A DNA stretch of 64,000 bases from contig OZ029913.1 in the NCBI GenBank assembly GCA_964023275.1, positions 50,785,509-50,849,508 on the forward strand, read 5' to 3'. This document shows positions 2,877 to 42,648 of this stretch, one piece after another. The position numbers were made by a program, and so were the translations under genes. The notes below the pieces were generated by a model that did no database searches, was not told the DNA's origin, and saw nothing but the letters and a program-made list of their open reading frames with translations. Position 1 is the first letter of the stretch, and every line of letters starts with the position of its first letter. Source of the stretch: Norana najaformis (lineage: Eukaryota; Annelida; Clitellata; Crassiclitellata; Hormogastridae).

Positions 2877-42648
<39,772 letters not shown>

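Follow-up and report, generated by a model that had tools for sequence, protein, structure and literature searches.

A natural SIGFG selectivity filter in an intact HCN channel gene, one of twelve HCN paralogues in the clitellate annelid Norana najaformis

HCN channels have a filter close to that of K+ channels and yet are only weakly selective, an old question that has so far been addressed with engineered mutants. The 64,000-nucleotide stretch of Norana najaformis DNA analysed here (the window) raises it in a natural setting, as its initial annotation described an HCN gene whose selectivity filter reads S-I-G-F-G instead of C-I-G-Y-G. Is this a genuine and intact HCN gene, is the altered filter peculiar to it, and what would the two changes do to the channel?

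The gene is an HCN channel gene of nine exons (2877-42648), which encode 793 residues with no internal stop and end in TGA. All eight introns are GT-AG with matching phases, and the claim of intact exons and matched splice phases therefore holds across the whole gene. The gene model was put together from splice sites and from comparison with paralogues; translation is taken to begin at the first ATG that follows an upstream stop, a guess from which the true start may differ. The features are as follows.

2877..3862, + strand: exon 1, N-terminus and HCN domain (Pfam Ion_trans_N; 12 matching exons in the genome)
32376..32539, + strand: exon 2, S1-S2 (gene model, homology to solved HCNs)
33524..33697, + strand: exon 3, S2-S3 (gene model, homology to solved HCNs)
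36325..36422, + strand: exon 4, S4 voltage sensor, with a leading G that spans the splice (gene model)
36844..36996, + strand: exon 5, S4-S5 linker (FISSAAGKF) and S5 (gene model, paralogue comparison)
37155..37373, + strand: exon 6, pore helix, selectivity filter and S6 (gene model, paralogue comparison)
37215..37229, + strand: selectivity filter codons AGC ATT GGA TTC GGT, S-I-G-F-G (codon reading, paralogue comparison)
40849..40995, + strand: exon 7, C-linker (gene model, homology to solved HCNs)
41611..41857, + strand: exon 8, first part of the CNBD (gene model, homology to solved HCNs)
42455..42648, + strand: exon 9, second part of the CNBD, short C-terminus and stop TGA (gene model, homology to solved HCNs)

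The protein matches the Pfam families Ion_trans_N (PF08412, E=1.6e-18, also found with exon 1 alone), Ion_trans and cNMP_binding (PF00027, E=4.7e-18), with Ion_trans_2 just below its cut-off. Among solved structures it is most closely matched by full-length HCN4, HCN3 and HCN1 entries, which score 641-660 bits (HCN4 660) over residues ~276-790, the alignment with HCN4 covering residues 276-790. Among the best 60 of 130 matches the highest-scoring non-HCN entry reaches 174 bits (5v4s), with CNG channels at up to 162, KCNH channels at up to 153 and SthK at up to 151 bits, and the HCN identity given in the initial annotation is thus borne out both by these scores and by the three Pfam domains. 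The C-linker and CNBD align with those of solved HCNs, and cAMP binding is predicted. Exon 4 encodes a long basic S4 with a Ser/Thr in its middle, a feature by which HCNs are recognised in the accessible part of a survey of such channels (PMC7576140). No PAS/eag domain was found in the N-terminus by Pfam (E up to 0.001), where Ion_trans_N is the only match.

The S4-S5 linker (36844-36870), the joint coupling sensor and gate, reads FISSAAGKF, with one residue more than the FLTVAGKF-like linkers of the 11 paralogues (exon starts by eye). Relative to vertebrate HCNs the linker is short of residues, and a missing linker exon was considered as a cause; it was rejected because the 8-residue linker of the paralogues starts at the S5 exon (by eye), that of the window gene having nine residues.

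A first intron of 28 kb lies between the HCN-domain exon and S1; it contains remains of a retrotransposon with a reverse transcriptase domain (PF00078) at 17555-18298 on the - strand, beside which a frame at 16905-17576 has no Pfam match. It also contains a perfect (CTGC)n array (28909-29083) and a near-perfect (AT)n array (28360-28491). Adjacent open frames of 187 and 344 aa at 5602-7197 (+ strand) appear transposon-like by eye and have no Pfam match. Two long open frames at 53661-56641 (- strand; 443 and 271 aa between stops) include stretches that by eye resemble membrane spans; neither has a Pfam match, and the two may be exons of a single gene for a membrane protein. The window gave no hits in Rfam and tRNA scans, nor did 37000-37400 in a bacterial promoter and terminator scan.

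The filter codons occupy exactly 37215-37229 in the HCN pore, within the open frame of a 219-base exon that encodes the pore helix, the filter and S6. They are the same five codons at the same position as initially annotated, in a window whose letters are exclusively A, C, G and T, and the departure from CIGYG at two positions, the Cys and the Tyr, is confirmed by the codon reading. With the pore exon as query, tblastn finds a single pore exon in the window, both at E up to 0.001 and at E up to 1, and no alternative CIGYG pore exon was seen in the introns at either threshold. The gene thus carries SIGFG where CIGYG is the HCN signature; we take that signature as characteristic of HCNs and not as defining them, because five of the 12 paralogues in this genome deviate from it.

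These paralogues emerge from a search of the 608-Mb assembly (17 contigs, the window being on contig 1). The pore exon recurs at 12 places, 82-100% identical and without stops, on contigs 1 (two), 3, 4, 5 (two), 7 (two), 8, 9, 10 and 14; two further matches on contig 16 have 42-45% identity, and a search started from the divergent contig-16 matches recovers these 14 places again. Twelve places match the HCN-domain exon, and each of them lies upstream of one of the 12 pores, on the same strand and at a distance of about 10-75 kb. All genes but the contig-14 copy yielded a first CNBD exon (11 of 12), and for 11 of the 12 the assembly contains every exon sampled (HCN domain; S5 to CNBD), the S1-S4 exons having been read for few copies besides that of the window. 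Where the second CNBD exon was read, the residue after the CNBD arginine is Val in ten of 11 copies, the window gene included, and Met in the eleventh.

We propose an expansion of the HCN family in clitellate annelids as the best explanation for these 12 dispersed paralogues. The part of the leech study available to us (PMC7992859) gives at least seven HCN genes in Hirudo and eight in Helobdella against one in the polychaete Capitella, with four as the previous maximum in any animal, and describes differences in expression of the leech genes among identified neurons; that part discusses none of the leech filters. The 12-gene set enlarges the clitellate expansion so far published for leeches. 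At a greater distance, two Nematostella HCNs act like bilaterian HCNs, according to the portion seen of PMC4640657.

Some other loci from the same genome deserve mention. The contig-14 copy (L022, L050; 1.68-1.70 Mb), whose filter is SIGYG, has no CNBD exon in the assembly, which may reflect a truncation or a gap, and two of its three stretches contain 2,894 and 2,106 N (5,000 in total). The contig-16 matches are a tandem pair of divergent HCN-type channels (14.72-14.74 Mb; L009, L010, L011) with the filters AVGYG and AVGYA, the second having lost the last filter glycine and the first having a CNBD without the usual RxAS arginine motif. In an unrelated family, the annelid haemoglobin-linker domain PF16915 has 29 matches in the genome and none in 14 control genomes, which makes an earthworm the most likely source; 13 of the 29 are clustered on contig 5 (36.7-36.9 Mb) as a local expansion. 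Aligned with the linker L1 chains of 2gtl and 4u8u, structures that are presumably from Lumbricus and Glossoscolex, the best of the 29 matches reaches 187 and 159 bits, respectively.

The filters were read in all 12 paralogues, and are CIGYG in seven, CIGFG in two, SIGYG in two, and SIGFG in the window gene. The singly changed copies are as follows.

Contigs 9 and 3: CIGFG paralogues (L013, L016), Tyr-to-Phe change alone
Contigs 5 and 14: SIGYG paralogues (L014, L022), Cys-to-Ser change alone

Cys-1, Tyr-4 or both are therefore replaced in five of 12 copies, with both changed in the window copy alone, and SIGFG occurs once in 12 within the HCN set of this genome, the one genome of the clade in which its frequency was assessed. 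The changes are confined to these two positions, I, G and G being invariant among the 12, and both are single-base substitutions (TGC to AGC, and TAC to TTC). That each change is found alone in two further copies of this genome (CIGFG and SIGYG, two copies each) makes a sequencing error unlikely. It also alters how the locus should be read: the initial interpretation was right to see an HCN gene, two filter changes, no pseudogene and a likeness to EAG/ERG filters, but it missed the family of 12 in which both changes occur singly, and for that reason the oddity belongs to the family series as much as to the window copy.

The relationships of these copies were analysed in a tree of the 12 genes (C14, on contig 14, being partial) and rabbit HCN4, with the two filter columns masked. 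At least two Cys/Ser and three Tyr/Phe changes are needed on this tree, although the count of independent origins is unsure because support is weak, with none of ten inner branches reaching the high-support mark. A single Ser clade of the window gene and the SIGYG pair is not rejected (p=0.358), and neither is a clade of the two CIGFG copies (p=0.101). A single origin of the Phe filters was rejected, as a clade of all three Phe copies is (p=0.005). The three Phe copies nevertheless have identical codons, ATT GGA TTC GGT (window 37218-37229; pore exons of L013 and L016), with GGA as the third filter codon in 3/3 Phe copies vs 0/9 Tyr copies (Fisher p=0.0045, post hoc, all 12 genes used); a short gene conversion or a misplaced copy is a possible cause of this identity.

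Selection was examined with a two-ratio codon model over 294 codons from S5 to the CNBD in 11 of the 12 genes, C14 being left out as it is without CNBD exons. The alignment omits a codon that is inserted in the first CNBD exon of the window gene, the second CNBD exon was cut to 50 codons, and that of C9 (contig 9) was taken by hand from L013, as its automatic extension ran off the locus. Omega is 0.12 on the window branch vs 0.05 in the background, values that are rough because the fitted length of 2.7 per codon represents a large silent divergence. Equality of the two is rejected (p=0.00026; p=0.0022 on an alternative tree), and so is omega=1 on the window branch (LRT 65.0; 54.6 on the alternative tree). 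The raised omega is not tied to the altered filter, since omega is also raised in C7a, a CIGYG copy on contig 7 (0.115, p=0.00085), but not in C9, whose filter is CIGFG (0.060, p=0.73). The window branch is also the longest of the 12 (0.34 vs a median end branch of 0.053), and at 167 sites fixed in the other ten genes the window gene departs at 11, two of which are in the pore exon; the two filter sites, being variable in the other genes, do not count towards these 11. From S5 to the CNBD the window copy thus evolves faster than its relatives yet under purifying selection, and its long branch and omega above background leave room for relaxed constraint.

The reading that we favour, and consider somewhat better than an even bet by analogy with engineered channels, is that the gene encodes a working HCN subunit forming a larger-conductance, weakly selective cation channel, as one of 12 paralogues of the clitellate expansion. 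As S4 and the C-linker/CNBD are intact, opening on hyperpolarisation and a response to cyclic nucleotide should be retained. Within the filter, Ser would put a small hydroxyl in place of the bulkier Cys thiol at the inner (S4) ion site, Phe would remove the Tyr hydroxyl at the outer vestibule, and the filter would be left with no thiol for Cd2+ or oxidants. The basis for the Cd2+ prediction is a result reportedly obtained with spHCN C428S. In the sections available of two papers on structures and simulations (PMC10386491, PMC9492253), only the inner sites of the HCN4 filter are usable, Cys stands in place of the K+-channel Thr at site S4, and the filter Tyr is turned relative to that of K+ channels.

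The closest functional analogue is HCN4 C479T, for which the accessible part of the mutant study gives a PNa/PK of 0.49 vs 0.29, a conductance of 1.7 vs 1.0 pS, and gating insensitive to K+/Na+ exchange; three engineered mutants in that study were silent (PMC2766643). According to the survey, in the part noted above, the selectivity of such channels is not predictable from primary structure, and Ser or Cys for Thr, as well as Tyr or Phe, occur in the filters of related channels (PMC7576140). Together these sources lead us to expect a thiol-free, weakly selective filter of larger conductance, and not a K+ channel. By the same analogy unitary conductance would be increased, the ion-dependence of gating changed, and selectivity still weak, for a functional effect that is predicted to be modest, with the limit that C479T is not C479S but an engineered Thr with the Tyr kept. 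No Tyr-to-Phe HCN mutant was found in the literature searched. The subunit may assemble with itself, or else with CIGYG subunits so as to tune Ih, its gating, permeation and assembly all being predictions.

Other readings of the same gene are less probable. A modulatory or non-conducting subunit, poor alone and altering CIGYG heteromers (e.g. as a dominant regulator), seems unlikely given the purifying selection on S5 to CNBD (S1-S4 lying outside that test) and the otherwise conserved pore exon and voltage sensor, but would fit with the double change in a single copy of 12, the longest end branch of the set with an omega above background, the additional linker residue, and the HCN4 L478T/C479T double mutant, which was expressed yet silent (PMC2766643, part available). 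Near-neutral drift, in which 12-gene redundancy relaxed the filter and both substitutions are tolerated without important effect, we hold to be similarly improbable; the large paralogous set, the single-base and recurrent nature of both changes, the slightly elevated omega of this copy and of one with CIGYG, and the exchanges of Ser/Cys for Thr and of Tyr/Phe noted among related channels (PMC7576140, part available) would accord with it, whereas the invariance of I, G and G in all 12 copies, with changes falling on two positions, and the behaviour of HCN4 C479T, which shows that position 1 matters (PMC2766643, part available), argue against it. It is likewise improbable that the pacemaker current has been diversified via the HCN filter itself, through a two-by-two set whose double variant, hyperpolarisation-activated and with a KCNH-like filter, is K+-selective or otherwise distinct in permeability; if it has, cells could set the reversal potential of Ih by choice or mixing of subunits.

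A little more doubtful still is a hyperpolarisation-activated K+-selective channel, in which Ser and Phe rebuild a KCNH-like filter and which would carry a K+ current of a physiological sign different from that of Ih. The KCNH filter motif is SVGFG, with which the window filter agrees at Ser, both Gly and Phe, Ile standing for Val. A pattern for such filters matches the genome at 14 places (13 with Ser, one with Arg), and in seven of eight loci cut out the pores are KCNH-like by eye; the EAG/ERG likeness first pointed out for the window filter thus stands, several SVGFG pores of the same genome reading as KCNH-like. Against K+ selectivity, HCN4 C479T (TIGYG) is less selective and further changes in the pore helix are of no help, in the part available of PMC2766643, and the pore helix of the window gene is the majority sequence of the 12-paralogue family.

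Finally, a pseudogene or an assembly or base-calling artefact, towards which the long branch alone points, is very unlikely for an intact gene whose 793 codons are free of stops and whose eight splice junctions agree, which is under purifying selection with omega well below 1, and whose filter changes each recur singly at other loci in a natural series. The absence of a stop, the GT-AG splice sites and matching phases, and this omega agree with the initial view that the gene is no pseudogene; it is real, intact, and embedded in a clitellate expansion larger than the published leech one.

No report of a natural SIGFG, SIGYG or CIGFG filter in an HCN was found in the open-licence literature searched, partly by titles and the starts of abstracts. 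A search for HCN Cys-to-Ser work by mutant name returned nothing related among the matches listed (titles), and one for earthworm or leech HCN/Ih literature returned nothing on point among the matches listed. The genome provides a natural matched series (CY, CF, SY and SF) in closely related backgrounds, and these four types could separate the roles of the filter Cys and Tyr in selectivity, in Cs+ and Cd2+ block, and in gating at the filter.

Comparison with known systems places the gene as follows. With mammalian HCN4, HCN3 and HCN1 (PDB 7nmn, 8inz, 5u6o) it has in common the HCN domain, S1-S6, C-linker and CNBD, and it keeps GEIC and the CNBD arginine, but differs in having SIGFG for CIGYG, a shorter S4-S5 linker and, after the CNBD arginine, a Val where they have Thr. 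It resembles KCNH channels (EAG/ERG, SVGFG) in the Ser and Phe at positions 1 and 4 of the filter, but has Ile at position 2, an HCN domain and no PAS domain by Pfam, and scores far lower against them than against HCNs. The CIGFG and SIGYG paralogues belong to the same family and have one change each, whereas the window copy alone has both. The leech HCN family (PMC7992859, part available) shares the clitellate expansion, with 7-8 genes against 12 here. HCN4 C479T (PMC2766643, part available) has a hydroxyl residue at the same filter position, where the worm gene has a natural Ser, together with Phe.
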